From: Aphrocallistes beatrix | Taxonomy: Eukaryota > Porifera > Hexactinellida > Sceptrulophora > Aphrocallistidae | NCBI GenBank assembly: GCA_963281255.1 | Contig: OY725493.1 | Coordinates: 1,239,550-1,303,549, forward strand | Direction: 5' to 3' | DNA: 64,000 nucleotides | Part shown: positions 1 through 55,545 of the stretch, one piece after another | Layout: every line of letters begins with the position of its first letter | Numbering within the stretch: position 1 is the stretch's first letter | Program-made: the position numbers and the translations under genes | Notes under the pieces: model-generated | Database searches by the model: none | Seen by the model: only the letters and a program-made list of their open reading frames with translations | What the model was told of the DNA's origin: nothing

Positions 1-3000
1 ACGCTCCCGGGTATTCTGCTAATACAAGTGAGTTTGTTTCATTGTAATCTATACTTAAGTTTGAATAACTTTGATATTTATACTGTCTTTAGCCTCAAAA
101 TCTCCTCAGCTAGCGGCTGATATTGGAGATGATTCGAGTGAAAAGATTGGTATTTAACTTATTACATTAAATCTTAGGGACCGTTCAACCGTTACGTAAC
201 GCTTCCAATGGGGTACGGGGGTAGCAAAGTGTGACAACCCTATCATTGTTGTATTACAAGGTGGTCAAAAACATGAATAGGGAGGGGAGTGTCTAAAATC
301 AGAGAATTTTGCGTTACGTATAACATTTGAACGTCCCCTTAGTGTTTTGTACCAGGAGTTGTGCTATGATTTGAGGAGGCAGGCATTTGTATTACTAAGT
401 AGATTTAATTTTAATTTTAAAGTTTTGCTGACTTTGCGCAGTATATACGCGGACACTGCCCGTTATGACTATCCTAATTTTATTCAATAAAAATAATACA
501 CAAATATTTACCCTAGAATTATCTTGCAATTGTGAAGGGTTTTGACATGTGATGTGGTATCATGTTAGATTTGTTCACATTCCTAGGATGTCAGTTTTTC
601 TATCTTTTTTTTAGTTTTCAATAGGTAAAATTTACAAAAATCATTAATTTTAAAATGTAGATTGGGAGAATCTCGAGTTCAAGCGGACTGACTGGGGAGC
701 AGATGAAGAGGGAGATACAACAGTGAATCATCACTTAGATGAAGAGTATGACGAGGACAAGCGTATTGAGGTATTGTATTGCTTCGGTTATAACGCGAAG
801 TTCTATCGCTGTGAAATATTCTGATTCTATATTGTTAGACCATCCTGACAGAAGGACTGGAAATTTGCAATTCTAACTATGATCCAGATCTTCAGTCGGA
901 CGTCCCAGTGAACCCTGCCTCTACAACGAATATGACAGAATCAAAGAGGCAAAATATTATATAATGAATTGCGATTATTAGAAATCTTATTTTACTAGAA
1001 AATATTACTGCATTATTTTCTTTTTAGTGACTCAACATTGTCACCACAAACAGTCCAACCAAAAAGCAATGGGATCTCGTATCCAATATTATCACCACAG
1101 ACCACCTCCCTTCCTACTCCTTCTGCCTCCATTCCTGAGTCAAGGTCCCATTCGCACCATCAAGCTATGGGAGAGGTGCTGACCCGAGTGGACAAGATGA
1201 ATCTCAAGAGAAAAGTTCGATCTAAAGTAAGATTTGTCAATATCATAATAACAAGCGATTGGCGCACTGGCGTAGCAAGCATTTCGTGTCGGCAGAGTCG
1301 CCGTACGGGCGCCTGGGGAATTAAAAATACCTATTATTGACTAATTTCACCGACCCATTTCGAAATTTTGTAAAATATATCTATATATTTTAAACAAAAC
1401 TGAAGGTGACCACAAAGTATCAGAAATATACAAGTGGGAATCTACACCTCTAATAAACACAGGTCAAACTGTTGAAAGCTAATTCCTAGCATATTTTGGA
1501 GATTTTTTTAACAAACAACAATATTTCCTTTAAAACTAAATAATTCACTTCTATTCTACTTAGATCCCTCAAGCACCTGTCGAACTTCCTAAAAAGGTCA
1601 TAGATAGTCTAGACATGCTCGTGCAGGTTTGTTATCTGTTCTCTATCAGGTGTACATTGAGTATTAGCTGATCTATCTTCAAGTGCTAATACCGAGTTTG
1701 TGTTCATAGTTTGGCAATCTGGACAATCTCGATCATATCACAGCAGAACACGAGGTAACCAAGCATCTCAGTGACATAATTATACATTTATAAATTGATT
1801 TATCTCTGTTTTCATCTCAAAGGAGCCTGAAACGAATTCGCTGCTCCCCGAAGTTGCGAGGTAATTCCAGGGCATATACTGGCTTGCATGTTATTATACG
1901 TACATATTAGTGTAATACTGAAATCTAACCGGTTAGTTCTACTGATCAAGTGGATGCTGATTCGAAGCCAGCCCTTCAAGAGATTAACAAACAACCTTCA
2001 ATCGATGATAGTGTTCCAATCAAGACTGAAACCGCTTCGCCCCCAACCTCGCCTCCTCCCAAGAGTTCCTCCTCTCCCCTTCGATCCCCTCTTCCTGAGC
2101 CACAGCCCCTCCCCGATCCTCCCTCTTCCCTCTCCTCGGCCCCCCCTCACACCACAGCTCCTGCAATGCAGCCGCACACACAGTACCAGCAACACATGAA
2201 TAGGCAAGGAGAGAAGAAGGGATACTCAGACAACAGTGGGAAAATGCACCACCACGGAGTGATGGCTGGAAACTCCAGCGCAGCTAAAATGCAACACCAA
2301 CAGATGGCAGCTCCGCCTGTAAGTTTTTCTATAGGCCCATAACATAATATATTTTATCAGTTATTTTTCAGATGAACTCCACCGAACAACCAGCCGCTAT
2401 GCCATTCTTAATGGCTGGTCCAATGGGAGTAGCTAACCACAACGTTCCGAATTCTCTCCCATCAAACATCCCTAACATTCCCAGAGGTGAGATATATGAC
2501 AAAATTACTTATATATATAATTACGCATACATAGGGAATTGATTAATATGAACTGTTGTAGGCACTAAGAACTACCCCATGATATACAACACTCAGGGAG
2601 TGCCGCAATTCTCCATGATGGTTAGTTGCTATCAATATGTGTTATTTTCGCGTTTCTAACCAATTGATTTTATCTTAATTCTTATAGTTTAATTTTATTG
2701 TTTTTACACATTTGTTAGCCCAATTTCTATGTCGATCAAGAAATGATGCGAATGGTAAGTTTTGTTAACATTAAACTGCGTTTACACATAAGAATAACTA
2801 TTCATTGCATTCTCTACACAGATGACATCGCAAGCTAATGCTGCGCCCAATATGATGAAGGACCAGAATACCAATCCTGGATTCCCAAGTAGTTTATATG
2901 ATCCCTTTTCAATGTACGTACATTGCTGTGATGATTTATGATCTTCTGTTCCACTAGACAACGATTCTAAGTTTCATGAACCGACATCTCCTGGAAATCC

Positions 3001-3873
3001 CCAGAGTTAGTGTTACAAATAGTATGTATATTTGCTCAGTTATCATCAATATTTATCATATCTCTCTATTAGGTGGAATTCCGGCTTATGTGAACTTCCC
3101 TATCCATGGATATCTTCCAAACTTCTTCCCTAATTTCTTTCCCATGGTAATTATATTGCTTGAAGTTCTATTATTTCTGAATACTATCTTCTGCAAAATC
3201 TTATACTGTACTGTTCCTCTTTAGATGCCGAAAGGAAATCCCGTTACTCCGACAGGAGGACAAACTCCCTTCCAGACTCAACCCCCTATTCCAGCCAACA
3301 TGTCAGCCATGCCCGAGCACACCGAATATAAGGCGAACTACCCATCTGTGCAGCAGAAACCAGGTAATCGCCTCCTGTTTCAAGCATTTCGATTTTTTGA
3401 AAAGTAACATTATCAATACTTCGTCTGTTGTTAGGTATCCCTCAACAGAATGACATCGCGAACATGTACAAGGTAGGCTGGGATATAAAAATGAAGGAGT
3501 TTGATTGAGTTTATGGTTTTATTCATTGTTCTCTCAGCCTTTCGATCAGAAGACTGGGTATCCTTTCAACTTCGGCTACCCCATGGCTCCTTACGTGACT
3601 CCACAGATGGTGCCTCAAGCAATGTCACAGCAGCAGCAACCGCAGTACTCGGCCATGACCCCGAACGTGGTAATATACCGTTACTCCCTTCAATACTGTG
3701 GTTAATACTGCCTCAGATTTTGTCGTTGGGAAATTGAGTGCATTAATTGGACCTTTTATAGTTCAGCTTTAACTTCAGCACTTTCAGTGTATAATCCATT
3801 CATTCATGTTATTTGCAACCTTTCTTTTTAGCTGCATCAACAGAACATCGATACACAGAGACAGAAGTGGTAG
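1..3873 (+). CDS. UBAP2/UBAP2L (Lingerer)-like protein, 5' end outside window
   Basis: Multi-exon gene entering from the left edge. Frame-consistent exons: 1-27, 93-149, 661-770, 839-948, 1028-1226, 1564-1626, 1710-1754, 1823-1860, 1937-2318, 2372-2486, 2562-2620, 2719-2754, 2822-2888, 3073-3146, 3225-3363, 3435-3472, 3538-3669, 3832-3873 (TAG). The exons at 1564-1754 encode a segment (IPQAPVELP, then VQFGNLDNL) that resembles the conserved IP-x-x-x-VE(M/L)P...VQFG block of UBAP2/UBAP2L/Lingerer (DUF3697). It is preceded by an acidic Trp-containing stretch (DWENLEF, TDWGADEEG) and followed by a Pro/Ser-rich and Gln/Met/Pro-rich tail with PNF, YPM and FPM motifs, also typical of that family. 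These RNA-associated cytoplasmic proteins act in stress granules and translation; the UBA domain would lie upstream of the window. The intron at 949-1027 appears to be GC-AG. The family call rests on one short motif plus composition, so it is moderate; the gene structure is firmer. Confidence 0.55.
1252..1515. repeat. Dispersed repeat family copy (inside a UBAP2-like intron)
   Basis: GC core (GGCGCACTGGCGTAGCAAGC, GGCAGAGTCGCCGTACGGGC, GCCTGGGG) followed by the AT module ('atctacacctctaataaaca', 'caaactgttgaaagctaatt', 'ctagcatattttgga'). It fills most of the 337-bp intron 1227-1563, the second-longest intron of the visible gene. Confidence 0.7.
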
Positions 3874-4268
3874 GATGCACAGAAGAGATCATCCTCTCTA
3901 GCACTGATTACACCCCACATATTACATTAAGTATATTTACTAGTTCATAGCCCCCTTTGCACCAGATCTATGTACTTAGTCTTTAAATGGTAGTCTTAAA
4001 TCGCTTCATTTTTGGTTTAGCATTTTTAGAACTGTAATCTTGCTTTTCGTGCGAATTTCACAAATCTGCAATCACTATGAATGATTATGTATTCTTTTCA
4101 TGTATAGTAGAATTTGAGTCAGTTCAGATTTCCAGACTTGTTCTTATAGATGCAGTCTGTATTCATTCATGCAGAGTTATATGAATCAAAATACTTTATG
4201 CGAATTATTTGTAGAGTTTACAACATCTCCGGTGGTTACTGTGATGGGGCGAGTTTCAGTTTAAAATT

Positions 4269-4274
4269 AATAAA
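4269..4274 (+). promoter_or_regulatory. Poly(A) signal AATAAA for the UBAP2-like gene
   Basis: Canonical AATAAA about 395 bp after the stop codon at 3873. It is the first clear hexamer seen downstream and would give a 3' UTR of about 400 nt. There is no transcript evidence. Confidence 0.4.
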
Positions 4275-4998
4275 TGCAGTCTAAACCGATCTTTTCTCTA
4301 TATCTTACAGGTTACAGGCAACAATAAGAATAGAAGATAGAATTTGATTAGATTTGGAATTTCTGACACATAAATAGTGAGAAATAATAAGAAAAACTCG
4401 GTATTGACTGTACCATATAATAAATACATATGCGTACATCTGTATTCATAATAACAGCTTTTTATTCGAATTATATAATATAGTAAACTGGATTTTACTT
4501 GAATGCTTTTCGAGTGCGGTAGAAGCTCTGTGGATGGAATACGATTAGTGAGCTAAGTTCGGATCAATTTGGATTGTAATAAACCAATCAAGTTTGGTAT
4601 CCTAGAGGGGGGTGATAATAATGAAACATTAAAGTCTACTGGAAACTAGTTTGAAGGAATAGTTATTGTTAATACTTCCTATTTGGATATAAAGCTTTTT
4701 GTTATTTTGATGTGAGAGTTTGATCCACCGCACAGCTAGGTGATCCATATTATGTTAAAAGATGAAATTTGAATGATTGCCAACATGTTGATTTTCTATC
4801 ACGGAATATTTACTTCCATATTGTTTATATTCACAATTTTCTTGAGGTGCTAATTGTCGAACGCAAAAAGTACGCCGCTTATTTCCATTATGAATAGCAA
4901 TTAATTTCCCTCACGATATAATTCTCTCAATAATATTCAACTTTTTTATCAATCTAGTACAGTGTATTTTCAAACCAACAGCATTGAATCTAGTTCCA
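4275..4998. other. AT-rich intergenic spacer
   Basis: No coding exon, RNA gene or repeat was recognised here. It should hold the end of the UBAP2-like transcript and the promoter and 5' UTR of the ankyrin gene. Confidence 0.5.
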
Positions 4999-7900
4999 AT
5001 GCTATCATCACTATTTAAATCATTTAATCAAGCTGATAGTGTAAAAGGTGAGTAGTTGTAGATGACACCGAACTAACTAGCTGTATGTAATGCTCCTCTC
5101 TTGTATCTCCATTAGATGCTGAAGCGAGAGAAATGATACTCCAGCAAGGGCAGCTTTTTATCCACCTCACTACAAACTGGTTTTATGGAGATAGTTTCAA
5201 GCCCTGTTTAGCTGTTCCTTCTATCGACCATCAAAAGCAGGTAATCATGCTTGAAAACAATCCAAAAGTTACAAAGATTGCCGTAAATGCGAAGAGTATA
5301 ATCTTCTCAAGCATGAATACCATCGATAAGGCAAGGGATGTTCTTGTCCAAGAGATACAATCAGCATATCAATTAGAAGATCGACGTTTCTTAGAAAGGA
5401 TATTTGAGACGCCTTGGGTTAAGAGAGAAAAAATTGAGTCATTTACCTCTACAACGGATATGTTGCTGTATACTCTATCACATCCTTCCAGTCTGAATGT
5501 ATTAGACTGGGTTTTATTACAGAAAGAGATCAAATGGGAACACAGGGATCCTGAAAATAATACACTCTTACATTTAGCGCTCAAAAATTTCGATGATGTA
5601 GAAAAGATCGTCTATGTGATGGATAGTGTATATAATGCCAAGCCTGAGTTGATTAATCAACTCAACACTGCTCAGGTTACGCCTTTAGAGCTCAGCATCC
5701 AATTGAATAAACTCAATTCCAGATTATTGGACTGCTTCCAAACGAACAAAGCTAAAATATTTCATATACAACAAGACGGGACTTATACGATCCTACTGGA
5801 CAGATTTGAGGTTGGTATCCTGGATACAGAACTCGTCGTTTCTTCTGAAAGTTTTAACGACTCAAAATGGAGAATTTGTTCTCCCATATTTGGTCCTTAC
5901 CATTGCGTAATGTGCCGGGCTGAAGAATTTCAGTGTCTAACATCTGCTGAATTTACTGTTGATTGTCAAGCGAAGATGTATTCCTTTCCATGCATACAGC
6001 TAATCTCCTTTCTCACGAGTAATAGAATACTGATGGATTTGCATATCGCAGCGAGATATTCTTGTGCCATTAACCTGCCCCACTTATTCAATCAACAAAC
6101 GTATCTGAAATTGATTGACAAGAATGGAAACAATTTACTACATTCGTCACTCTTAGCTGCAGAGTTGAATAATTTCACACATTTGCTAGTCCTTCATAGA
6201 GATATTGAGACAAAGATTGACTTACTTATGATGCCAAACTCTGAAAGTTTAACCCCGATACATATTCTGATTGACAAGCACGAATATGGCCTAATTAGCA
6301 GTTTTCTAGCTTACAGAACAATCAATGGCAATAATCTCTGTCATATCGCGATGGCAGCTAATGACATCCGACTCCTTAGAGTGATACTGGAAGAAACTGG
6401 ATGTCTGGATCTGTGTAACGAACTGAATGGTCAGGGCGAATCTCCTCTGATTCTTGGTATAAATAGAGAGTCTACACAGGCAGTTGAACACCTGTTAGAA
6501 AAAGTCCGCGGCTGTAAGTTGGAACAAGAAGATGACCAAGGACGCAACTGCCTCCACATCTCCATAATGAATTATAATGAAGATATATTTGCTCTACTGT
6601 TATCTGCTGTAGTCGAGTATGACCCTAACCATGACGTCATCAATTCCAAACTCGACGGGTTGACTCCGTTTCTGCTAAGTTTGAAAGAGCACAGACCAGA
6701 TGCTGCCATTAAACTAGTGCAATCGAGTGCCTTCATTGGTAGAGGACAAGATTTATTTCCTCACATTATGGACTACTACAACAACTCTCTTAGCTTAAAG
6801 GAGCTCATTACCTTACCATTAAATCAGGGAAACGTAGGCAACGATTTCAATCCATCTAAGGTAGCTTCCATTCTAGATTTGAGAGATGAGCAACAAAACT
6901 CTCTTTTACACTACTCCCTTAAATCGGGTATAGTCACAGGTTTTCAAAATATTCTGAAAGAAAGTCCTCTGAGTATAATCTTAACTCTTGACAATGAGAA
7001 TAACCATATATTACTCACCGCACTAAAACTGGAGCTAATCGATCAATGCAACAACATTGTAGACGCAGTAGTAGACCAAGCGGATTCTGCTAACTGCGAT
7101 GCTTTTGTAAATCAGAAGAATATTTATGGAGAGTGTCCCATTTCTCTCTCAGTCATCAGAGGCTATACTTATGTAATCACGGGGCTCATCAGATTGAAAA
7201 CTCGTCTTGACGTGGTGGATGGCAAAAACAACAATATTTTTCACATCTTATTAGAGCAACCAAGTTCTCCGGCTGTCTTCGGAACATTCAAATTTCTTAT
7301 GGAAGAAACTCATCTACGTCATCTCCTCACGCAAACCAATGATCTGAAAGAGAATCCATTGCATTTAGTGGTGAAGAATAGTCACGTCAATATTATTCCC
7401 CTTCTAATCAAGGAAGATATGATAGCTGGGTTCAAAGAGCCCGATGGATCGACTCTACTGCACTATGCTGTAATTTGTGATTCTTCGGCGAATCAGGAAA
7501 GTGTTATCCAGGAGATTTTGAAGCATAAAGACATTTTGAATACTCCCGACTTTTCAGGACAAACCCCACTCTTCTACGCCATCATTCGAATGAAGCTTGC
7601 AATCGTAAAATTGCTGTTAGAGAAACGTCCCAACTTGTCCGCTACTGATAACTCAGGTCAAGACGTCCTGCATTACGCAATAGCTGGGTTGGATTGCTTG
7701 ATATTCCAAACTGTAATGCTAGCTTTTAATCAGAGTAAGTTGATTGATTATGGCAACTATCTCCTTTTTTGCATCAAACGAGGAAACTTGATTTATCTGA
7801 AAGAGATGCTAGTTCTAAACCCAAGCATTAATCAGAAAGATGACCAAGGTTCCACTCTATTACATCACATGGCCAGTCGCAGAGATAGAGCTAAAATGCT

Positions 7901-10900: not shown

Positions 10901-11441
10901 TCGGGATAGGCGAGGGAACACTCCGTTGCTTCTCGCTGAGACGCTTGAGCGAGAAGAAATCGCGGAATGTATCAGAACGTCATCTGGTACAGCCGACGAA
11001 CCGAACTCCCAGGCGCTACACTCTGGTCCGAATAGAATATCTTATCAGCTGGTACGCATTCTCGCAGAGCAAACTGACGTCGGATACATACCAAGGGAGA
11101 TCAGCCAGGAACTGGGAATACATTCTCATTTCTTGTCCACTCCAAACTCTCAAGCGTCTATCACAGGCTGCTACTGGTGTGGAGACAGTTCCAATGAGAT
11201 GGATGGGTTAACATGTTCTACCGCTTGCTTCTTCCGCCTACACACCTGGTGCTTGGAAAAAGCTGAACAGTTTTGCGGCGTATTGCTATGCAGTCTGCCA
11301 GGTTGCAGTAGCGAGGTGATGGGTGGCACTCACGGGTGCTGCTGTGGAGCACATCTGAAGGTGTTGCTTGCTCTAAGAGGAAAAGACTTGAAATGTGGAG
11401 ATAAGACTTGTCCTCATTGGTACGAGGAAATGCCTCCATAA
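4999..11441 (+). CDS. Giant ankyrin-repeat protein with C-terminal Cys-rich (putative zinc-binding) module
   Basis: Two exons, 4999-5047 and 5116-11441, give 2124 residues. The short first exon has an ATG, ends in GTGAGT with phase 1, and joins in frame upstream of Met 5133, so it is preferred over an in-exon start. The body has many ankyrin repeats, recognisable by TLLHLA, TPLHLA and HLAV patterns. They are broken by non-ankyrin linkers near residues 1050-1290 and 1540-1700. About 130 N-terminal residues match no domain I know. The last ~110 residues are rich in Cys and His (CYWC, TCSTACFF, HTWC, LPGC, CCCGAH, CGDKTC), suggesting a cross-braced zinc fold of PHD/RING/ZZ type, but the spacing fits no one class cleanly. 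There is no FYVE, BTB, VPS9 or kinase signature, so Rabankyrin and VARP are unlikely. It is probably a cytoplasmic scaffold or ubiquitin-related adaptor; function unknown. The almost intronless 6.3-kb coding exon is unusual for such a repeat protein. Confidence 0.85.
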
Positions 11442-11724
11442 ATTGAGTTAAAATGAAGAATACCTGACAATCATGGCGATTCTAGATTTTTCAATAATTC
11501 GAAATTTATTTTACAACTGCATTGTACAAATTATATCCGTGTGGTTTTATGTGTTGATTAACTGATTGTCTGGTGTGCCTAATCTTGTAACTGTCAAATG
11601 TTTGTATATGATAGTATATATTTTTTTAAAACTTGGAAACTGATAATGAATTATTTCAGAAGTAAAAGCAGCTAAATTTAACTTGATTTTGCATCCAGGT
11701 AAGTAGGTAAGTACGGTTTGGGGA

Positions 11725-12432: not shown

Positions 12433-12798
12433 TAACGAATTTGAGTTGGAAGCTCGCTGAATGAGCTCCAATACTGTATGATTCAAGTTACTTATGCGTG
12501 TGATGATATTACATAGGTTCTGTGTATGGTTCTGTGTTGTGTTACGATATGACGATATGAGTAGTAATCACTACAGCCATTTAGTACATCTAATTACAAC
12601 CCCAGGGTTCCAATTCGGTCATGGACCTAACTCCTTAACTGTGTTAATTGGGAATGGGTTGATATCTCCCGTGAATTGACCATATTTGGCGTCATTGAGT
12701 TGTCTACAGAAACTGATCTATTTTCGAGAACTACCTACCTATTAATATGTACTATATTGCTATACTATAAACCTATAAACTTGGTGCTTTAGCATTGA
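12433..12798. other. Intergenic spacer, ATP5PB to TMEM245
   Basis: About 366 bp. It contains a 61-codon open frame with no recognisable similarity, which I treat as chance. No repeat or RNA gene was seen. Confidence 0.5.
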
Positions 12799-15516: not shown

Positions 15517-15884
15517 GCAGATGGTTTATTCATTGATTATCGTCTCTCTCCTGATGATTAAATGTCTGATGTTAATATTCTAATTATCTAATTCTAATAT
15601 TCTTAACCTTTTGTCATTTCTATACAAGATATTGATCTTGGATAGTCTTATAAACAAGTCTCTATGTTTCAATCGTACTAGGTCAAACAATGCATCATAG
15701 AACACATAATTCGTGGATTCAAAGCTACGTAATACAAATTTTTAGATCATTTAAAACCCTCGAGTGACCAGTCTAGTCACTCAAGGTTGCAAAACCAATT
15801 CCAGTAAACCCCCATTAGACCGTAGTTACATGAACGAATCTTCAATATAATGCCTCCCCGATATACGTATATATATGTATATAC

Positions 15885-16250
15885 AAGCGCGCTTCGCTTG
15901 CTTGCGCTGCGAGCACCTGGAGTTACTCAGTCTAGCCTATTTTCGGGATTTTTTTACTTTATAAAAATATTGTAAACAAAAGTTAACGAATAATTTCTCA
16001 TATGGATCCGAAATATTATATTCTAAATCAACACCCCTGAAACCCCCATGTCAACCGTTGAAAACAAGTTTCTAGCATATTTTTGACATTTGTTTACTTT
16101 ATGTATCTAATGTAAACAAAAGTAAACAAATAATTTATCATATATATCTGAAAATATGATATTCGAAATCTACACCCCTAAAAACCCCATGTTGCCCGTT
16201 GGAAGCTAGTCTCTAGCATATTTTTCAAAAATTCGTCAAATGGTGTGAAA
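15885..16250. repeat. Dispersed repeat family copy (GC core plus two AT-rich modules)
   Basis: Starts with a GC-rich core (about 15888-15930, CGCGCTTCGCTTGC) followed by two tandem, diverged copies of an AT-rich module. Each module carries '(a)tctacacccc...aaa.ccc', 'gttgaaa..(a)agt' and 'tctagcatatttt'. The same arrangement recurs near 1255-1500, 43484-43725 and, inverted, 55330-55545. No coding capacity was seen. Confidence 0.7.
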
Positions 16251-16363
16251 ATATGTAGATAAAGGTGTAAAAATTGTTTTTCACTTTTTTGCAGAGGTCT
16301 GAAAATATATAATAATTATACAATAATTATATAATAATTATATAATTATTATATAATTATTAT

Positions 16364-16992
16364 CAAGGTTGAAACCGCTTCAACCAAATACCATTTTAAC
16401 CGAATAATGGTCAGACCAAATAATTTGGTTAACCGAATAATGGTCAAACCGAATAATTTGGTTAACCGAATAATGGTCAGACCAAATAATTTGGTTAACC
16501 GAATAATGGTTAAACCGAATAATTTGGTCAACCGAATATTTGGTCGACCAAATAATTTGCTGAACCAAATAATACTTTTTGCATAAATTTTTATATATTA
16601 TATAAATATTTATACAAAAATATAATCAAGTATAAGTAAGCCTATTAGATTTATTTGTGTTCGGACCACCTCATGTAAGAACGTGTGATTGTATTAGGAA
16701 AGCATGCAAATTATTTGTTTGACCAAATTATTCGGTTGACCAAATATTTGGTTGACCAAATTATTCGGTTGACCAAATTATTCGGTTGACCAAATTATTT
16801 GGTTGACCAAATATTCGGTTGACCAAATTATTCGGTTGACCAAATATTCGGTTGACCAAATTATTCGGTTGACCAAATTATTTGGTTCTCAACCGAATAC
16901 CAAATAATGATATTTGGTTACAAACCAAATATCAATTATTTGCAAATAATATTTGGTTAAACCGAATAATCAACTATTCGGTTTCAACCCTG
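16364..16992. mobile_element. hAT-like non-autonomous foldback element (629 bp)
   Basis: Terminal inverted repeats CAAGGTTGAAACCG (left) and CGGTTTCAACCCTG (right) bound an interior of short repeats built from 'accaaataatttggtt' and 'aaccgaataatggtc' type units. These lie in opposite orientation in the two halves, so the whole element can fold back. Both ends are flanked by the identical octamer ATTATTAT (16356-16363 and 16993-17000), the 8-bp target duplication expected of hAT transposons. The flanks are themselves AT repeats, so the duplication could be partly coincidental. A non-repetitive ~150 bp spacer sits in the middle (about 16570-16720). No transposase is encoded. Confidence 0.7.
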
Positions 16993-17084
16993 ATTATTAT
17001 ATAATAATTATATAATTATTATATAATAATTGCAAAATAAGGGCAGCCCGCAAAATAATTATTAAAAAAAAAGCAAATTTTGAA

Positions 17085-17220
17085 ATTGATTAGTGGAAAT
17101 GATCAATATTTGGCACCCGTAGAGACTTCTGAATTTGTCGACATTCCCAGGCGCCCGCAGGGCGACTCTGCAAAAGCAAAGTGTTCGCTAGCCGCGCTAC
17201 GCAAGTGCGGTTGTATCCAT
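17085..17220. repeat. Dispersed repeat family copy (inverted orientation)
   Basis: Contains 'atcaatatttggcacccgta' and then the GC core read on the minus strand (GGGCGACTCTGC, GCTAGCCGCGCTACGCAAG). The reverse complement of the first motif is present next to the core at about 43555-43580, which supports family membership. Confidence 0.7.
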
Positions 17221-21954: not shown

Positions 21955-22020
21955 ACGTTGTGAAGGGCGCTCCGCAGACTTCGCTGCGCGGCGGCAAACA
22001 CTGCGTCCGCATAAATGCAT
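21955..22020. repeat. Dispersed repeat family copy (partial GC core)
   Basis: Short GC-rich island (GGGCGCTCCGCAGACTTCGC, GGCAAACACTGCGTCCGC) in AT-rich DNA. It shares the order of cgc/gcg blocks and 'caaacact' with the other cores but is more diverged. Confidence 0.45.
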
Positions 22021-22374
22021 ATAAAACTATTTAAAAATCTTATCTATTAAAACTTAAAGGTTTTTTGTTTGTTTGTTCAAGTTGATTGAAGAACTGAGGT
22101 GCTAGAAATGTGAAAAAGAACTATTTGTGATTGAAATTTATTGGTTCATGTGAGAACCAATCAAGTATCAGGCTTTTATAGATATATAAAGTAAATAAAG
22201 CTCAAAAATATGCTCGATACTTCCTTAGAACTTTTACATTTGTTTTTTAGGTGTGTAGATTTAAAATTATTTTGATCATTGACCTAATTTTTATTTTCCA
22301 GTTCTTATTTCATAATTCACGGGAGATGAATGACGTTTTTTAGTAGAGTTTGAAGAAAACAATCAATCGTTTCT

Positions 22375-22455
22375 TTGATAGCCCGCAGGGCGACTCTGCA
22401 AACAAGCAGTGCCCGCAAGCTGCCCAGCGCAAGCAAGCGAAGCGCACTTGATATT
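22375..22455. repeat. Dispersed repeat family copy (inverted GC core)
   Basis: Contains GCCCGCAGGGCGACTCTGCA followed by 'aagcagtgcccgcaagctgc' and 'aagcaagcgaagcgcacttg'. It matches the cores at 17150-17215 and 55490-55535 in the same orientation. It lies in the 868-bp gap between the NADAR and CCDC34-like genes, about 355 bp from the partial copy upstream. Confidence 0.65.
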
Positions 22456-23225: not shown

Positions 23226-24040
23226 AACGAAAATTATTTATAACCTACTATGCCATTGGAATGTTGGCTAAAAGAGTATCTGTTTCATATCTTCAATCCC
23301 TATGCTTCATTACCAGCTACAGCTACATGTGCACTTACATTTTTGTCTCGTTTCCTATATCCCCTTTTCTCTATTAAAACCATATTTCCTGGTCGACATA
23401 AGCATTCTCAGAATTGAATAAATACCTACACTGAAATTACTTTTCATTCGCCTTTATCCTTTCCAATTTCTCCTCAAGTTACCCAGTTGTTATTATTTCC
23501 ACTCCGCAACCTACACATCTTTATAAGCTGTTTCTTATGAGTGGTTTAACTCATTGGATTGTGATTAAGTTTTGGTTGAAATATTATTTTATATTATTCG
23601 ACGGATAGAAAGCATTTTCGTATGATAATGATAATCATCTTTATACTACGTACTAGCTTGATTACCTAAAGAATTAAGTTAGAAAAATCGCGGTTAAACA
23701 GCAAAAGTTAACAGGATCAAAGGGGACTACCTCAGTTCGATTAATGTTCTACTGCTCACCGAAAGATTGGAGATAGCTTTTTCCTCAAGAGATGAATACT
23801 CGAAAAGTTTATTCAAAATTGCTATCAAAACTGAGCAGAATATTCTGTCTACTTTCCAGGTAAATAATTAATTTAAATTCGAGTTACTAGAATGCGATAT
23901 CAGTACTCACAATATTAATTCTATCAATTCTATTATTTAATTGATCAGACAATTCAGCGAATATTTAGTTTGACGATATTCCCTGATTGCTTATTTGACC
24001 AATACAATCAATCACAAATAAATTGAATTGATTGTCAGTT
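23226..24040. other. Intergenic spacer, no feature recognised
   Basis: AT-rich. A 70-nt open frame at about 23791-23860 ends at a GTAAAT donor-like site, but no acceptor joins it in frame to the downstream gene, so it is not called as an exon. Confidence 0.4.
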
Positions 24041-24044
24041 CATT

Positions 24045-24215
24045 GTTTAGTATTATATAAAACAAATTTATTTCTATATAAAACAAATTTATTTCTATAT
24101 AAAACAAATTTATTTCTATATAAAACAAATTTATTTCTATATAAAACAAATTTATTTCTATATAAAACAAATTTATTTCTATATAAAGCAATACTATTTC
24201 TATATAAAACAATTT
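24045..24215. repeat. 21-bp tandem repeat (minisatellite)
   Basis: Head-to-tail copies of a 21-bp unit (ataaaacaaatttatttcta plus t). About six are identical, followed by one or two diverged ones. Because 21 is a multiple of three, both strands stay open and produce artificial 7-residue repeat frames, which I do not call as genes. No spacer/repeat alternation, so not CRISPR-like. Confidence 0.9.
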
Positions 24216-24532
24216 ATAACTGCATCACTACTGCCTGCCATAATGAATTGATATATTCTACAATAGAAACTCGTCCGCGAACTAAAAACTGTCTCAGATA
24301 TTTGGAATTTTCTGTCTTTCGGAAGGGGGAATGATTTTATTTTTAGATACTTAAAGTTAAGCCTGGGTCAAAATTGAAAAATTTCTCGTACGGGAAATAG
24401 GCTGAAATTTGTTGTTTTATACCAAAGGCCCCACCAAGCACCTTTATAAACATAAACAATCCTCAATTTTGTATACAAATTCTGAATCTTTGATATCTTT
24501 ATTTTATTGATCTCTAATAGTAGGTAGCCGAC

Positions 24533-26125
24533 ATGGCCGAGATATCACCTTATTATAACGAACAGCCAGCTGAAATAAATATTGACACCTACCCCCGTCT
24601 CCGAGCTAACACGGTGAGATCAACTCCCTCGATATCTGACTCCTCTCTCCCCGTGTCTAACACTACAATACAGGGAAAAGAAATGAAGAAAATGTTTAAT
24701 TTTCTTATGAGAAGGTTGCAAGAAAAAGAAGATGCTATTTTGGCGATGCTAGAATCACACGAGAATACAGCTGAAATGGAAAAGATCCAGCAACTACAAC
24801 AGCTCTATGATAGTAAGAACAGTCTCAAGGAAAGCATGAAGAACCCCATGCTCGATTCCGGGCTTCAGTTAGCTTTAGAGAATATCCAGGATCAGATAAA
24901 TAAGCTTGAGAAGCAGTTGAATATCACGAAATACTTTGTGTGGAATTTGACTGAGTGCGAGAGAGCAATCGACAACGTCTGCTTATTCGTGGAGCATGGC
25001 AGCTTCATAGATGCGTATCGAAGGAAGAGAAGACTCCTGTGGCAGAGTGTGACGAACGGATCTGAGAGGACACAGGTACTGGGTCCTTCCGGAATGGCCG
25101 TTCAGCCCTACACAGACCACATTTATGTAGGAGACCCCGGTAACCGACGTATTCAGACCTACAACAGGGAAGGCAAACACCTCTCTTCTCTCCGTCTGGA
25201 AAAAGACTTTCACATCTTCCATCTCGAGTTTTTTGGAGAGTCACTCATTCTTCTTGGTAAGTTCAATAAATATAAGTAATTTATTTGGTGGGGATCAGTT
25301 TATTGATTGAAATACATTTATTTAGGTACAATTGAAAAGGTTTTTCATCTGGTCAGAATTAACCCAACGAATGGTCAGCTGTTTCGTGGAGTACTCTCCA
25401 ACCTCGATCACATTGAATTCAATGAGCAAGATAGACCAGAGTCACATATCGTCTTTTGCTTGAACAAATCAAATCTTGCCATTCAGGTCTGCGTTTATCT
25501 TCCTAACCATCTGATACTGATTCAAGCCTTTTCATTCGAGACGTGTGAACCAATCAAGAACAACGGCGTTAATGTAGTGCACCTAAAATCTCCTTATATT
25601 GAAGATGCTACACAAGCTGTCAGACTGAACGCAGAAGGAGAATCGCTGGATACTATGCAATTCCATGTTTTATACCAGAATAGTCCGTTCATTTTGCAAA
25701 GTTTTAACTTGAAAGGAGACCTTACTAAAAACATCATAACGCCCAGTGTTATCTCCCCCACGCCAAGGTTAACTCAATTTCTGCTCGATAAAGATGGCAA
25801 CGTTATTATTTGTCAGGTTAGACACGTGACTAAACTGAATAGAGCGACTGAGTCGATAGAGCTTGTAGATGTCATTTATACTTTCCATGTGTTTTCTGAT
25901 TCTGGAAAGCTGGAACATAAATGGATATATAAAAGCTCGAAGCGTAGCTCGTTTGCCAATGTCTGTATTCCTAAACGTTTCCAGAAATCGCCTCAACCAC
26001 CCTTCCCTAAACTTCCATTAGCTGAAGATCATGATTCCCTCCAGCTGTTTGCAAGCCTCAACTCTAATCAGGATATCGTGGTGTTGCATTCCGCAGAACC
26101 TTCGTTGTTACTCAGAGCTTTTTAA
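24533..26125 (+). CDS. Coiled-coil / NHL-like beta-propeller protein, paralog A
   Basis: Two exons, 24533-25256 and 25326-26125 (phase-1 intron of 69 bp), give 507 residues. Residues ~45-140 are a coiled coil (KKMFNFLMRRLQEKEDAIL, LQQLYDSKNSLKESMKNP). A family motif follows (YFVWNLTECERAIDNVC), then a propeller-like C-terminal half whose first blade has GPSGMAVQPYTDHIYVGDPG and RRIQTYNREGKHL, the NHL/TRIM32-type strand pattern. Paralog B (53296-55049) shares the coiled coil, the VWN...C..AID.VC motif, the first blade and the intron position; paralog C (41800-43098) is more distant. There is no RING or B-box, so it is not a canonical TRIM protein. No signal peptide or membrane segment is visible. 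Function unknown; the propeller suggests protein or RNA binding. Confidence 0.8.
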
Positions 26126-26844: not shown

Positions 26845-26854
26845 CTGAACATTT

Positions 26855-41322: not shown

Positions 41323-41340
41323 AATGTAGATTCACTTACA

Positions 41341-47391
<6,051 letters not shown>

Positions 47392-47811
47392 ATAAATCCC
47401 AGAGTTAAACGAGTCTTAGTCTTGCTCGGATCTATTTATTTAGTTATCTGCTCGAAAATCTGCCTTATATTAAAATTAATATGTGTTACGAATTAGTTAT
47501 GTTAGTGTTTCAAGCTTCTATGATAGACTTATTATACATTTATTAAATATTTTATTTATATGCTCTCCCAATTCTTGGGGAAAATACGCTAATAAACGTG
47601 GAGGAGAATGAATGGCAGATGTGAGACAATACTATTAGACTCGCTCCCCACAGTTCCTACTACCACCTCCGAAGTATACTTTAATATAGCATTTCATATC
47701 AGCATTAACAATATCCTATTGTTCCACTATTTCAATTGGAATATACAATTTCCTAAATATCCTTTTATCGAGCTGGTGCTGCTAGAGCCAAGTGAGTTGA
47801 GTCCCTCTCTC

Positions 47812-49561
47812 TCATTCCAAGAGCCTTGACTTGCTAATGAAAGCGAACCACATTATGCCCACCAGAAATATTACGAAGAATGATTCGATTGGGATCGTGG
47901 GTTTCGGAGATCGCGCTCCCTAAACAGAAATAGTTACAGAGCAAAATTGAAACGACGAAATAGAGATTTGTAAGTAAGCTGACTCACTGGATGGTTGATT
48001 TCTATCTCGAACATTGGTGTAGTACTAATTTCTTCCGATCCTGACCTCTGAACCTGAGAACAATAAAATTTTAAAATCAGATTACCCAAAAAATTAGTTT
48101 CACTTTTAAACGTTCCCCCAGCGAATAATTTCCTTCGCAATCAATATTCTTCCTTAGACGAGAATCACGTAGGATGATCTAAGTTTATTAACAATATGTT
48201 AAATGCAATTCCTCAACAAGATAACCAATTTAATATGACCTAGAATTAACAGATGGAATTTCGTCCCTCGAAATGTCTTTTTGGAAAATTTTTCATGGAA
48301 ATTTAGGTTCTTTGAATTGGTAAACGGATGTTTTGTTGCTGATATCTCTTCGAATGGAATTACAAATTGTTGGGAAACATGAATTTGTTCTAAAGCTGAA
48401 TGGGATTAATAGGATAGTGAGAGTGAGCATTTTAGAGAGTTTTATGTATAAGAGCAAAGAAAGTGGGCATTTTCGGTTTGAAATAATATCAAATGGCACG
48501 CGAGAGTGCGAGTGGTATTTTTATTTCGTGAGGGGGTAGGTGATTGTCATTTATTATTTGTTAGAATGAATGGGAGAATGAAAGAGGATTCAATAATTTC
48601 ATTCAAAGAAATATCAGCGACGAAACATTCTCCATTCCTTTGAATTCCATAATTTGATACCTCGAATTGATTTTCTTCATAGTAGTAGTATTTTGAAGAT
48701 TTTGAATTGTCACAGTTATATCATAGCAGTAAAGTGTTGAAATGCTAATTTTGGCTAGCAGTGAAAATTTGTGTAATAATGCACCATATCCTGTGTTGGG
48801 AAAAATGTATTTTATTTAGTAGTGAAGAAGCGTTTTTTCGCTTGATCGCTCGCATTTTTTTGATGTCTTCAAATACTGCTCATCTCGAAAAAAGGTTGAG
48901 CATGCTCAACTTTTCAGTTCATTGTAAATTCAATGAAACAAAATTTCTTGAAAAGAAAGTTCTGTTTCTGATGTTAGATAATTATCTCTTACTTTTCTAA
49001 ACATTGCGAATCCTTCTTCATCATATATGTTGAGCACATACTTCCCTGAACTTGCTACTGCATGCTTATCCGTCCAACTCGCCTTCAATCAAGAATTAAA
49101 TACATAAAATACCACATACATAATCAGTTTGTAAATAATTGAGAATTCCACCTGGTACTTTTCAACCCCTTTTGCTAGTTCCACTACCCTCCCATTCACT
49201 TCAGCGTAGAGATGACCAGTCTTCTCCTACAATGTACTATGATGATAATTGTTATTTATGCTTGAATCACCGTCTTAAACTAACATTTCCCAGGAATATT
49301 GAACTCAAAATCGTCATTCCAAATGGAACGCTATGGTCATACCTTGTCACAGTCGATAGAGAACTCAGCTAAGAATACCGTCTGGGAGGAGAGGTTTATG
49401 TCAGAGGTCGAGTAGGTTGTGACATCCCCTTCTCTGCAGGCACCTGTGCAATTAACCACACGACTTAACCTAATTAAATTTAATTGAGTTGATAGGAGGG
49501 GTAGCTTACCATTGACCAACTGGAAAGAGAGTATCATGGTTAGCAGGAGTACAAGTTTCAT
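47812..49561 (-). CDS. SSR4: TRAP-delta, translocon-associated protein subunit delta
   Basis: Six exons on the minus strand: 49510-49561, 49343-49443, 49152-49226, 48993-49082, 47988-48053, 47812-47919, giving 163 residues; every junction keeps frame and GT-AG. The signal peptide is residues 1-17 (MKLVLLLTMILSFQLVN). The luminal domain has CREGDVTTYSTSDINLSSQT, VFLAEFSIDC, LYAEVNGRVVELAKGVEKYQ, ASWTDKHAVASSGKYVLNIY DEEGFAMFRK. A C-terminal membrane helix (~135-155, FFVIFLVGIMWFAFI) and a short cytosolic tail follow. This matches animal TRAP-delta (human 173 residues), part of the ER complex that aids co-translational translocation and glycosylation. The 5' splice of exon 2 is placed at the CACAG acceptor; the other nearby acceptor would introduce a stop. 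Intron 4 is 939 bp, long for this region. Confidence 0.9.
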
Positions 49562-49976
49562 TGCTGATTCAATATCTAAAGTATACTGCTTTTCTACCCA
49601 AGTACGCACTAAGAAAATTATTAATTAAACTATATATATAATGATGATGATACAATGTGTACTATAGGTCGGCGAACTTGACGAGGTCTGAGTTACTTTA
49701 AATTTAGTAAGACTGTTCTAGATACATTATATAGTGATTGAAGCTATAAATCCAAATTATATTTACGTGCCAATATGTAGTGCTGTTCGCCGAATATTGA
49801 AAATTTTGTGTTACACAGCCTGTTCGACTATTGCTTACAATATCCTGAATTAAACACATTATTCTTGTCGAACAAAATGTGTTTTCTCGGCGGCTGATTG
49901 AACTAAGTTGGATCAATGGAAGAACTAAAATTATATTTACATTACACTATTTGAAGGTTCGCATACTACAATCCTG

Positions 49977-52693
49977 CTATTTCTGTTTGCTTTGAAGAAG
50001 AGTTTGCAACAGTTTCGCACACTCGGAAACCTTTGGAACTTCTTCATAAGCTGCAAGTGACTGGACGACCACAAACACATTAGCATTCGTAATCAGGTCC
50101 ATAATGGCCTCAGGAGCTAGTGCGGCGAGGTGTCCAAACGCGACGAGAGCTCGGAACTGAGTTTCGGGGTTGTTCGCGGTTGAGAGCAGCTCCCGGACCA
50201 GTGCGCCGCAGAGAGAGTAGAGCTGCTCGTTCTTCACGGCGGTGGCCATGAAGCAGTAGTTCAGACAGATCGTGCTGACGCCTATGTGCACCTTAGCTGC
50301 CGACTGCTCGTAGATCAGCTGTATCAGCCTGGGAATGACCTGGTCGAACGTGTGCTCCATCAGGTACTGCCCCGGCCGGTGTGCGAATAGGTTATTCACG
50401 ATATTGACTCCGATCCAGAGGAAGCCGCACATTTCTCCGGCTGCGGGTAGGGAGTAGAGGGAGAAATGCAACAAGCCCTCCCCCTCCTCTTCTGCGTAGA
50501 ACTTGTTCCCGGACAGGTCCAGCAGGGCTATGCGGATGGTGTCCAGGGCGATGAATGATTTCTGCGGAGGCCAGGATAGCAGCTTAATCAGGACGCGGAG
50601 CTTCCAAGGCTCGATGTCTCTGTCAGTGAGGACTGAGTTCACATCAGCCAAGTCCTGAGCCGAGAGAATCCCATCCGTGTTGAACTCCCGGAGCTTGTCC
50701 ATCATCTTGGCAGGATCCTTCGCTGGGAAGAGTTGGAAGTCTCGCTTGGGGTAGAACTTGTTGTCCGCAGGGGAGGCGGGCGGGGGGCGGAGGCTGTTGG
50801 TGGGGGTTATTCTGGACTTGCGCGTGTAGTGAGCGGGGAGGCTGGTGGGGATGTGTCTGAGAGGTGTGGAATCTGGGGGAGGAGTGGAAATGGGGGTCGG
50901 GGCGTAGCCAGAGAATCGAGTGATAGGAGGGTCAGGAGGGATCGAAATGTAAGTCTCAACCTTCTGTTGGGGAGCAGCAGCACCAGGGATGTACCTGCCA
51001 GCCCCGCTGAGCGGGTCTCCCTGTGTCTGAGGGGGAGCAGGGTTGGCAGGCGTGGTGGAGGTGCCAGGAATGTAGCGGTTAGCGCCGCTGTAAGGATCTG
51101 AGAACGCAGACACATCTGTGCTGACACCGGAGAGCTTCTGATTCTCGGCTATGAACTGGGCAATCTGGTCCAGAAAGAGCTGAGATAAGCCGTGCTTCCA
51201 CATGAATTTCTGTGCTGTCATCCACGGATCGTCATTGTAGTTGAAGCCCAGTTTGAGCGGGTTCTGATCCTCCCTCACGTCTACATCAATCACCTACAAG
51301 GCGCTGTGTCAACATCTGCTAGATGACAAACAATCTATTTATCTACCTGGTCAAATTCCTCTCCATCTAACACCATCTTATTGCTGCCACCAATCGTGGG
51401 CTTGTGCTCAGTGGCGGGACCTGTTCCTCCTATAGAGGACCCCACCGCCTCTCCCATCTTCTTCCACTCCCCCTCTTTCTCATACCACTGATACACCTCT
51501 GCCAGTCCCTGATTGTTCACCAACTTGTTCTCGTGGTCGAATTTGCCGGGCGTGGCCAGCGCCTGGAGGCCGGGCAGTTCGTTGGGGTCTATCTTGTCCA
51601 TGGTGGCGGAGGACTGGCACAGCTCCTGGTACATCTCCAGGATGTCCGCGGGCGCCTTTCTCTCGGGATCTCGCGAGAAGACACGCACCACTCCGTCGCT
51701 GCTGCCTGTCGCGATGTCCCCGTTAGGCAGGACAGTCACCGCCCACACAGACATGGCTGGGTGCCTCGTGGTCTCAATCGGGGAGGTTTTCTCGTAGTTC
51801 CAAATTCTGAGAGACTTGTCCTCTCCGACGGAGACAAACCCTTCACCCCCTGGGAGAGGGTACAGCTGATAGATGAGCGACTCGTGTCCCAGGAAGCTCT
51901 TCATTCTGTCTCCGGAGTGCAGGTTCCATTGAATGATGACACTATCGTTACTGGCAGAGAGGAATGAGTTCTGGTCGATTGGTAGGATACTCCTGACCGC
52001 GTCCTGGTGTCCCTCGTACTTCAGCCGAGCTACTCCCTAACAAAGCCACAGACATGAACAGTGGTCCCTTAGACCAATACTGGAGACTAGAAATGATTAC
52101 AAGTATATATTATAATTAATGAAGAAAAGTAGAAACAAACGCACCTGCATGTCCCACAGACGCAGACTCCTGTCTCCGGATGCACTGAGCAGGTACTCCG
52201 TGTCAGGCACCCCCACCACACACCAGACAGTGCTGGTATGCCCCTTCAGTTCCACGAACGAGTTCACACCCTTCCAGACTCTGCAGGTGCCGTCCCACGA
52301 ACTGGAGAGGAGGGCTCCCCTGTGGTAGTTCAAGCAGCACACCGCATTCGTGTGTCCCTTGAACGCTGCTATGGGGTTGAGGAGGGTTTCGTCTGTGTCT
52401 AGAGCGTATAGGTTGATAAGATGGTCGTTACTCCCAGTGGCTATCAGGTCTGTGCGTGCGAAAGTGCCAATCACTTCTGCGAAATCTTTCGGGAGAGCAC
52501 ACACTGCTATGATGTAGCGGGAATGTCCTTGTAGAGTCTTGTTCGTTTCGTAGTCACGCGGAGATCTGTCAGACCTCTGCCACAGACGGCAGGTGACGTC
52601 ACGTGAGGTGCTCACTATCTGACCGTCAGAGGTGTGAGAAAGTGCCCTCACATCTGCTGTGTGGCCTTCTAGCTGAGAACTCAGGCTATACAT
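49977..52693 (-). CDS. PLAA: PLAA / Ufd3, phospholipase A2-activating protein
   Basis: Three exons on the minus strand: 52145-52693, 51347-52036, 49977-51293, phase 0 at both junctions; 851 residues. The start is Met 52693 (MYSLSSQLEGHTADVRALSH); the longer open frame to 52774 runs into a transposon. Residues ~1-300 are a WD40 propeller with GH...WD repeats (LKGHTSTVWCVVGVP, LLSASGDRSLRLWDMQ, YEGHQDAVRSILP, NGDIATGSSDGVVRVFS). A PFU domain (~370-480, GLAEVYQWYEKEGEWKKMGE, VIDVDVREDQNPLKLGFNYN DDPW) follows, then a Pro-rich linker and a PUL domain (~560-850, armadillo-like). This is the order of PLAA/Ufd3/Doa1, a ubiquitin-binding cofactor of p97/Cdc48 in ubiquitin recycling and lysosomal sorting. 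Confidence 0.92.
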
Positions 52694-52732
52694 ACCACAC
52701 TGTTCTACGCAAGCAACAAGAAATGCCAAATA

Positions 52733-52898
52733 CAGTCGACTCCGCTTAATAGGGCCACATCGGTCAGAGGACATTTTGCCCCGATTAAGGACCCTATTAA
52801 CCGAAAATATTTTGTATTAGCTTCTATGTGTGAGAGCTATTCCGGTCCTGCCAAAAGTGTCCCGATTAAACAGTGGCCCTATTAAGCGGAGTCGACTG
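52733..52898. mobile_element. Tigger/pogo-like MITE (166 bp)
   Basis: Perfect ~26-bp terminal inverted repeats (CAGTCGACTCCGCTTAATAG, then GGCC...) flanked by TA on both sides (52731-52732, 52899-52900), the target duplication of Tc1/mariner-class elements. The CAGTCGA...TTAA start and an internal 'cctattaaccgaaaat' resemble Tigger/pogo ends. No transposase; interior is short with secondary inverted segments (cccgattaa). Confidence 0.85.
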
Positions 52899-52900
52899 TA

Positions 52901-53295
52901 TTTGAAATAAATTAGGATTCCAGCTTCCTACATCATACTTAGAGTTATGGGCTCGGCCAACCTTTTTCCTTCGCCTACTAAATTTCAATAGTGTGCCGAA
53001 TGTAGGAATTTCAAAATTGTGAGATTTCTCTTTTGTTTCAAACATTTTATAAATTAACCTTTGTTTATTGAACAAAAGCACCACCAACGTTTGATATCGT
53101 GAGATCATGACATTTTGTTAGAAATCATTAGAGTTGAGAGTCCTACTGGTGTTACATATCCTGGATAAATCAAGTACCAAAACAAAGTACAAAAACATGA
53201 AATCGTTTACAAATACTCCTATTTATAAACATAAAGTCAGTTCACATAACCATACACCCAAATAAAAAGTTTGCTATCGTTATATAATACATCAA
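52901..53295. other. Spacer between the MITE and paralog B
   Basis: AT-rich 3' flank of paralog B; an 80-codon open frame here (52866-53108, minus) overlaps the MITE and has no similarity I recognise. Confidence 0.4.
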
Positions 53296-55049
53296 TTAAA
53301 TTATCTGCAGGATATTGTTATCTTGATGCGAGTTCAGAAGGATTAGTTTATATATAGAACTCACGCAGAGAAACAACTTCTCAACACAGTTTTTCGAACT
53401 ACTAGTGGTGCCTTGAGTTGAATACTTAATTACTTGTTGCAACTCTCCTGAATTAGAGTAGATATCCATCGTCGTATTTGAACTGATGCTAACGGAAGAG
53501 GAAAGGGAATGGAATGAAGAGCATTTCTGATTAGGAGGTTCTACTTTAACCTGACATATAATAATGTTCTTATCCTTGTCAATGGCAAAGGAACTAAGAG
53601 GACTTGAGAGTTCTAGCTGTATTACAGCTCTTACTAATACTCCTTTATCGTTGAATATCTGAACACAGTATTCACTCCCTCTGAGCAGTAAATAGAGATC
53701 AGTTTTACTCGTAGACCCAGAATAGTAGTCACTTTTTTTTACATGTACTACTACCTTCATACTGATAACCGTAGTATTATCCTTGATATGAGGCGACTTT
53801 AAAATACAAATGAAGTTTTTTGCATTGCTTCCTTTATTACCACTAAAAATTTGTTTGGTCAAAATAAAATTCAACAACTTATGGTAGATGTAGATGGTGA
53901 TTCGTTGTTCATTCCACCGCTGATCATCCTCCCGCACAATGGCATATATCGATAAAGCATTAATGTTGATGCTGGATTGATAAAAGAGATCGCAAGATCG
54001 TATATAATCAAGAATATCCAAACTTTGGAATTTAGTCTCTCCGTTTACTGGATTGATTTTAATAATACAAATATCTTCGTCTTTTTTGCCTAAAGATTAC
54101 ATAGATTCAGCATAAAATACAAATATTAAAAAAGTAGTTTTTACAAATTAACTAAACATACGAAAAATTAAAAAGTCGCTCAACAGACCAAGAATGCAGA
54201 TTAGTGACTAGAATTGAAGGACACGAAATATGAATATTCTTATGTAATATATCGGGAAATATCCATCTTAGAGCTTTCTACACAGTGAAATTCTCAATAG
54301 CTTAAGTTCTGGCCACGCCAATGTCTGTCATCAACGTTTTATTGCTAGCCAAGTTACAATATTAATTTCGAGGTACGATAATCACCTGCAACATAAATGT
54401 ATCCCTCCTCATAGGTTAAATAATCGAGATTCGAGTCTTTGAAAACTGGCAGTGGAAACTTGTACATACGTCGGCCTTTTTTATCGTAGAAATGTACAAA
54501 TCTATCGTCTAGTATGTAAATGTTATTTGCTGCTGGGTCTATTGCAAGGCTCTTAGGTTGAGACACATCATCACTACCGGTTCCGATCTTTACTCCACTG
54601 AACAGCGGTTGATCTGTTGAGTTGTACTTTGAATCGGTCTTCACCTGACATACCTTATCAATTGCTGATTTACATGCCTCAACATTCCATACTAAGCTTA
54701 CTTCTGGATTCAGTATCTCCTCTATCTTTTTGATATCTTGATTGAGAGAATCTAGACTTTGTTGAAGTGTGCGTGATATTTTGGACAGATTAGGATCTCG
54801 CATGGTTTGTTCTAATCCTTCTTTACTGGCATACAATTTCTGGAGTTGTGTATTGAGCCGATCATACTCAGAACCAGTAGAAGGTGCATACTTACTCTCC
54901 AAGCTTGATATAATGCTGACTTGTTTTTCTTGCAGTTTCGTATGTAAGGAATCGAATTGTTTGTTTATTTCTTTTTTCTTTAAATCAAGAGAGGTCTGGG
55001 GCGCTAATAGATCTGATGGGGGACGTGGATTCACGGGAGAAGAGGACAT
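53296..55049 (-). CDS. Coiled-coil / NHL-like beta-propeller protein, paralog B
   Basis: Two exons on the minus strand, 54386-55049 and 53296-54089 (296-bp intron, phase 1), give 485 residues. Layout equals paralog A: coiled coil (~25-130, DLKKKEINKQFDSLHTKLQE, LYASKEGLEQTMRDPN), motif SLVWNVEACKSAIDKVC, and a first blade (PKSLAIDPAANNIYILDD, RFVHFYDKKGRRMYKF) followed by a beta-rich C-terminal half. Exon 2 begins GKKDEDICIIKINPVNGET, aligning with GTIEKVFHLVRINPTNGQ of paralog A, so the intron sits at the same residue and phase. This shows common descent by gene duplication rather than convergence. No RING or B-box, signal peptide or membrane helix. Function unknown. Confidence 0.8.
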
Positions 55050-55329
55050 TTGATCTAATTATAACTAAGATATATGTCAAAATGCAGCAATCGGGTAGAT
55101 ATCGTAATTTGATTATGATGGGAAATTAGCATTATGATCAATTCAGGAATTGCCTTTGACAAAATTCACCTGGTAGGTTCTACGTAAGCTTTAAACGGAT
55201 ACGAAATCTGTTATTAATAATAGAAAAATTGCCATACTTCAAAGTTCGAAGCAGTAACTTATTAACATAATCTTAATTTCCTCATTGTGCATAGCATTAA
55301 AAATATTATTTGTATATTTTCACATCTTG

Positions 55330-55545
55330 TTAAATATGCTATAGACTAACTTTCAACGGTTGACCTGGGGGTTTCAGGGTTGTAGATTCCAAATATTGCA
55401 TTTTCGAAACTATGCGCTCAACATTTTATCTGTTTCCGTTTACAATTGATACATAAAGTAGGCATATCATCTCCCCAGTTACCCACAGGGCAACTCTGCG
55501 GACAAAAAGTGTTGGCTAGCCGTGCTACGCAAGTTATGTTATCGA
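55330..55545. repeat. Dispersed repeat family copy (inverted)
   Basis: Read on the minus strand it gives the GC core (CTTGCGTAGCACGGCTAGCC, GCAGAGTTGCCCTGTGGG) then the AT module (inverted 'gttgacctgggggtttcag', 'gtagattccaaatattgc'). It is a near-complete copy, in the opposite orientation to the 43484 copy. Confidence 0.7.

Follow-up and report, generated by a model that had tools for sequence, protein, structure and literature searches.

What kind of element is the two-part repeat that recurs, in both orientations, across a 64,000-nucleotide stretch of the genome of the glass sponge Aphrocallistes beatrix (the window, as we call the whole stretch analysed here)? A preliminary description had recorded a GC-rich core and an AT-rich module at seven places (1252-1515, 15885-16250, 17085-17220, 21955-22020, 22375-22455, 43484-43725 and 55330-55545), and judged them to fit neither SINE nor MITE. 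Our analysis leaves little doubt that they belong to a high-copy, mostly non-autonomous family of Helitrons, i.e., rolling-circle transposons. The evidence comprises sharply defined TC...CTTG ends placed between A and T, thousands of such ends in the genome, and a coding (RepHel) partner that combines an HUH-Y2 Rep with a PIF1 domain. On the other side stand a 3′ CTTG in place of CTRR, a main terminal stem that folds no better than shuffled sequence, and one copy, at 22038, that is followed by A. The dispersal, the high copy number and the proposal to look for Helitron ends were sound in that first reading, which missed the 5′ end and the coding partner; the repeat looked unclassifiable because the GC-rich end had been seen and these two had not.

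The repeat itself is real. Each of the seven intervals was aligned locally to one complete genomic copy (L022:1625-2406), with 200 dinucleotide shuffles per interval. In the above order, the scores are 68, 267, 41, 23, 54, 71 and 78, against shuffle maxima of 20, 25.5, 15, 16.5, 18.5, 23 and 21.5, and 0 of 200 shuffles reached the real score at any interval. Shared order, as opposed to mere base composition, is likewise borne out: the order of core and AT module is constant wherever both align (1252, 15885, 43484, and 22375 together with its upstream part), and the shuffles never match. At 55330 the alignment spans the AT part, the core being known from a separate comparison, and at 17085 and 21955 the core alone aligns. 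Independently, a BLAST library of 15 element sequences recovered 7 clusters totalling 1,941 bp, or about 3% of the window, and had 0 matches in the reversed window; the cluster edges are approximate because two of the 15 queries (L009+ and L010+) span nested copies. These 7 clusters differ from the original seven intervals in lacking 21955-22020 and in adding 48458-48552. The copies in the window, which are more diverged and mostly incomplete, are as follows (a slash marks the boundary between element and host):

1252..1510, minus strand: 3′ part of a Helitron copy, 5′ part missing; 1264-1510 aligns to element positions 530-762, and the 3′ terminus ...CGCTTG lies at 1252, followed by host T.
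15884..16347, minus strand: best preserved copy, aligning to element positions 270-782, its 3′ end with 0 mismatches; two AT modules of ~140 bp each; the 3′ end, ...GCAAGCAAGCGAAGCGCGCTTG/T at 15884, is intact, the core bears an internal deletion, and the 5′ part is interrupted near 16300-16350.
17066..17213, plus strand: 3′ part of another copy, core 17147-17205 (0/200 shuffles); probable terminus GGTTG at 17213, then T; 17066-17128 pairs with 43553-43615 (83%).
21963..22011, minus strand: short degraded 3′ core fragment; it scores 23 (best shuffle, 16.5) and was missed by the 15-sequence BLAST.
22038..22450, plus strand: nearly complete 413-bp copy; 22178-22450 aligns to element positions 516-782, its 3′ end with 1 mismatch; 5′ end A/TCTTATCTATTAAAACTTAAAGG..., aligning to position 1 of the RepHel copy RH62; 3′ end ...GCAAGCAAGCGAAGCGCACTTG, with A instead of T as the next base.
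43485..43742, minus strand: 3′ part of a copy that aligns to the element; 3′ terminus ...GCGCACTTG/T at 43485, with the palindrome AAGTGCGC-TTT-GCGCACTT; hairpin z -3.79.
48458..48552, plus strand: piece akin to a second Helitron family, matching the L057 element at 75% (E 2e-11).
55228..55533, plus strand: copy without a second AT module (0/200 shuffles for 55330-55545); internal part 55228-55467, core 55481-55533, terminal hairpin not recognisable.

Some of the original intervals thus change their standing. The piece at 21955-22020 is genuine but, at 49 bp and a score of 23, the weakest of all, its strand being opposite to that of its neighbour; that at 22375-22455 is genuine but just the 3′ end of the copy at 22038-22450. 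The pieces at 15885 and 17085 are two oppositely oriented copies with an AT-rich fold-back between them. The palindrome reported in the core is present, but AAGTGCGC/GCGCACTT is part of the 43485 copy, whose terminus is rare, with 5 places in the genome; the CTACGC...GCGCACTTG end was accordingly rejected as a signature of the family.

The anatomy of the element emerges from places elsewhere in the genome, 20 of the best 21, taken with 2-kb flanks and aligned in one orientation. In most of the copies listed, similarity ends at the same two points, a few being without one end. Read in the transposon orientation, opposite to that of the 15884 copy, the element begins with TCTTATATATTAAAATGCTAGGA, continues through a T/G-rich and an AT-rich part with a ~140-bp tandem module into the GC-rich core, and ends in GCAAGCAAGCGAAGCGCGCTTG; complete copies lie between a host A and a host T (A/TCTTATATATTAAAATGCTAGGA...GCAAGCAAGCGAAGCGCGCTTG/T), with no target duplication. 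The dispersed two-part repeat first described is hence confirmed with its parts reassigned: the GC-rich core is roughly the last 75 bp, i.e., the terminal sequence, and the AT module is part of the ~140-bp tandem unit upstream of it. What recurs in the window is thus the 3′ end region of a Helitron family.

The flanking bases were read in L009-L028, which were chosen by internal similarity, and in the RepHel loci L062-L067. An A immediately precedes the 5′ end in 22/23 cases, the exception being a G that probably reflects a head-to-tail joint after RH62, and a T immediately follows the 3′ end in 36/37 (the exception, C); as background, A accounts for about a third of bases and T likewise. A wider set of loci gave similar figures, on which we do not rely because its L041-L060 had been selected by patterns that already contained the flanking A or T, and because overlapping patterns count some ends twice. 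Uninterrupted counterparts of the insertion sites were sought by joining the flanks. Among the joint matches listed, many are AT-rich simple sequence and prove nothing, and two insertions have clear empty counterparts, in which the flanks meet at A/T with no duplicated bases. One is that of RH63, whose counterpart in L009 reads ...ATATGTA/TATATACATATG...; the other is a minus-strand element in L058, with counterparts in L017, L067, L061 and others (...CTGTTA/TAATC...), some homologues having A or C for the T. RH64 compared with L047 gives a precise joint too, but with A for T just after the joint. The inspection of copy ends for target duplications, as the preliminary description had advised, thus found none at the two uninterrupted sites, and insertion between A and T.

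Its guess of thousands of copies is also upheld. Across the 100.5-Mb genome (28 contigs, the window being on contig 7), and allowing ≤3 mismatches, we counted 8,944 3′ ends (4,419 + 4,525 by strand), or one per 11 kb, and 1,532 5′ ends (793 + 739 by strand); the reversed-pattern controls gave 0 in the whole genome for both. With 15885-16250 as the genome query there were 2,542 first-look candidates, and scoring 40 of these yielded at least 74 matches, its own place included. Nearly all of ~100 places listed were on the plus strand on contig 1, an apparent strand bias that we rejected as an artefact of the listing, because a perfect minus-strand copy in L058 went unlisted and the strand totals are 4,419 versus 4,525. 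This 5′ end is about six times rarer than the 3′ end, probably on account of a second family that has another 5′ end but the same 3′ end, and probably also of the loss of 5′ parts, as in the copies of the window. Such a second Helitron family, with the 5′ end TCCTTACTATTAAAACTCG and the 3′ end of the first, is seen in L053, L056, L057, L058 and L045.

The search for a parental autonomous element, another suggestion of the preliminary description, was answered by three RepHel copies with nearly the same ends in the same genome. Pfam Helitron_like_N has 106 genome matches, including open frames of 1,947, 1,959 and 1,970 aa. The three copies RH62, RH63 and RH64 (9,510, 9,587 and 9,949 bp) were each read to both ends, TCTTATATATTAAAACTCTAGG...GCAAGCAAGCGAAGCGCACTTG, and their termini are nearly the same as those of the short elements: a short element compared with RH62 is identical at 234/305 aligned positions over the first 313 bp and at 73/82 over the last 82 bp. 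The RepHel frame is open in two of the three (1,947 and 1,970 aa) and split in RH64 (1,531 + 452 aa). The 1,947-aa protein contains Helitron_like_N (2.7e-59), PIF1 (1.1e-78), OTU (8.7e-7) and Pif1_2B domains, and its best PDB match is Helraiser (7lcc; 1,053 bits over residues 219-1674). It displays HUH at 741-743, the tyrosine pair Y876/Y880 and a Walker A motif at 1236; mutating the corresponding residues of Helraiser is described as abolishing transposition (PMC4778049). A fourth RepHel locus, L061, codes for a diverged protein. The RepHel frame at L062:3226-9066 (minus strand) has a C-terminal OTU-like domain and 69-bp tandem repeats near its N-terminus.

On these sequence grounds, the RepHel copies are the likely source enzyme, or autonomous partner, of the short copies. 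The protein would nick at the 5′ A/TC and peel off one strand up to the GC-rich 3′ terminus, where peeling would stop, and the ends would then be joined to an AT target; short copies sharing these ends could thus spread in trans. The RepHel copies are mutually 97.5-98.9% identical over stretches of 6.9-7.7 kb, and such near-identity together with open frames suggests recent activity. In sixteen short copies, 13 of which had been chosen because they closely resemble the window copy, the mean divergence from the majority sequence is 10.1% (range 4.8-37.2%).

The 5′ TC of Helitrons (Helitron1) is present, and the 3′ terminus is CTTG in RepHel and short copies alike, so that the proposed check for Helitron-like ends returned CTTG instead of the strict CTRR. 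Stems are predicted, with folding z of -0.09 for the main family, +0.06 for the RepHel end and -3.79 for the rare 43485 end, and the predicted stem abuts the 3′ terminus, as against the about 10-12 nt upstream that is expected. A CTTG 3′ end is on record for HELPO2 of Pleurotus ostreatus (PMC4289320), and CTTG ends are said to occur in maize (PMC4778049); going by these accounts, we regard CTTG as a Helitron variant and do not take the strict CTRR as a defining feature.

Of the known systems, Helraiser/Helibat1 of bats, with HelibatN, is described as sharing the 5′ TC, insertion between A and T, a RepHel with HUH, two tyrosines and Walker A, abundant short relatives, and precise head-to-tail end junctions, there in circles (PMC4778049). 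It differs in the 3′ end (CTAG there, CTTG here), in a 19-bp palindrome placed 11 nt from the end, whereas the predicted stem here abuts it, and in a frame of 1,496 aa, as opposed to 1,947 aa with a C-terminal OTU domain here (PMC4778049). HELPO2, as reported, has the same CTTG 3′ end, AT insertion and single-frame RepHel, but is a fungal family and is likened to ours by description, not by sequence (PMC4289320). A literature search on Helitrons in glass sponges and in sponges (Porifera) yielded nothing on this family, which is weak evidence as to published work. We regard it as a probably new family of a known kind.

Among other readings, a Helentron or HINE (Helitron2-type, DINE-1-like) element with internal tandem repeats fares best, and is still very improbable. 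HINEs are built of internal tandem repeats and a GC-rich, partly palindromic end, an anatomy that the ~140-bp internal tandem modules and the GC-rich, partly palindromic end of our element resemble. Against this speak the 5′ TC and A/T insertion, Helraiser as the best PDB match, and the Pfam scan of two RepHel proteins, which found no endonuclease family. Helentrons and HINEs are defined, in the account cited, by a partner endonuclease domain and an asymmetric terminal inverted repeat (PMC5148889); the termini here, compared by eye, are unlike.

More improbable still is a MITE, or a fold-back element bounded by terminal inverted repeats. It would draw on 15884-17213, where an AT-rich inverted repeat is flanked by two GC-rich cores of opposite orientation; we rejected this reading of the locus, as it consists of two copies side by side and complete copies are single-cored. 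Elsewhere these have the GC-rich core at one end and TCTTATATATT at the other, the termini are unlike by eye, and no target duplication is found at the two uninterrupted sites. The intervening fold-back itself, at 16301-17040, is AT-rich, with inverted ATAATTATTAT-type arms around arrays of a ~17-bp unit (GGTTGACCAAATTATTC and complements), and sits between the two oppositely oriented Helitron pieces. A SINE or other retroposed RNA gene, equally implausible, would account for a short, dispersed, non-coding repeat with a GC-rich head and an AT-rich body, but not for 0 tRNAs in a scan of the window, fixed ends on both sides without target duplication, or RepHel copies carrying nearly the same ends. 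The initial verdict of neither SINE nor MITE consequently holds, the target duplication of either being absent at the two uninterrupted sites.

The window has further features beside the Helitron copies. At 52727-52904 lies a perfect 32-bp inverted repeat, CAAATACAGTCGACTCCGCTTAATAGGGCCAC, with its arms 114 nt apart, part of which also adjoins Helitron copies in L016, L028 and L042; it looks like a separate inverted-repeat element. A tandem array of a 21-bp unit, TTTATTTCTATATAAAACAAA, occupies 24025-24234. Three open frames (24533-26125, 41800-43098 and 53296-55049) appear by eye to be one local gene family with a coiled-coil-like start and a propeller-like end; of the three, 41800-43098 alone has an NHL match above the Pfam cut-off.

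The Helitron family also shows an arrangement that we consider mildly unusual, namely 38 head-to-tail joints against 0 inverted ones. Immediately after RH62 comes a second element, of 618 bp, and no A separates the two (CTTG-TCTTAT). The direct CTTG-TC joint pattern occurs at 38 places (22 + 16; ≤3 mismatches, 8 perfect), and a shorter one at 59 (≤2 mismatches, 21 perfect), counts that depend on the mismatch thresholds. The host A is absent in 36/38 joints, 2/38 reading TTA/TC. For the inverted, 5′-to-5′ joint the count is 0, although this form, being a long palindrome, may have been lost. Were insertion at those A/T sites blind, it should yield 5′-to-5′ inverted joints as often as head-to-tail ones. 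With 8,944 insertions, 1,532 resident 5′ ends and AT dinucleotides at 9.6% of the fetched bases, blind insertion predicts about one or two joint events in all, half of them head-to-tail. We tentatively raise the possibility, which is on the whole doubtful, that the transposase targets the A/TC start of resident copies or that the family often integrates as multimers. At the one joint of the 38 that was read on both sides, the partners are unlike, one being a RepHel copy of 9.5 kb and the other a copy of 618 bp, and thus targeting fits that joint better than copying round a circle. Head-to-tail Helitron junctions are known from bats and maize, and both multimers and insertion at a resident A/T have been proposed in print (PMC2267711, PMC5876387). 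The adjacent maize Helitrons, as reported, likewise form a head-to-tail pair with a G/T joint without host A, but as one such pair, against the tens of joints counted here (PMC2267711).

Thus, a repeat that had stood as unclassified, and that is otherwise ordinary, receives a named mechanism and, within its own genome, a likely source enzyme, and its tens of head-to-tail joints provide material for deciding between circles and insertion at resident ends as the origin of such pairs.
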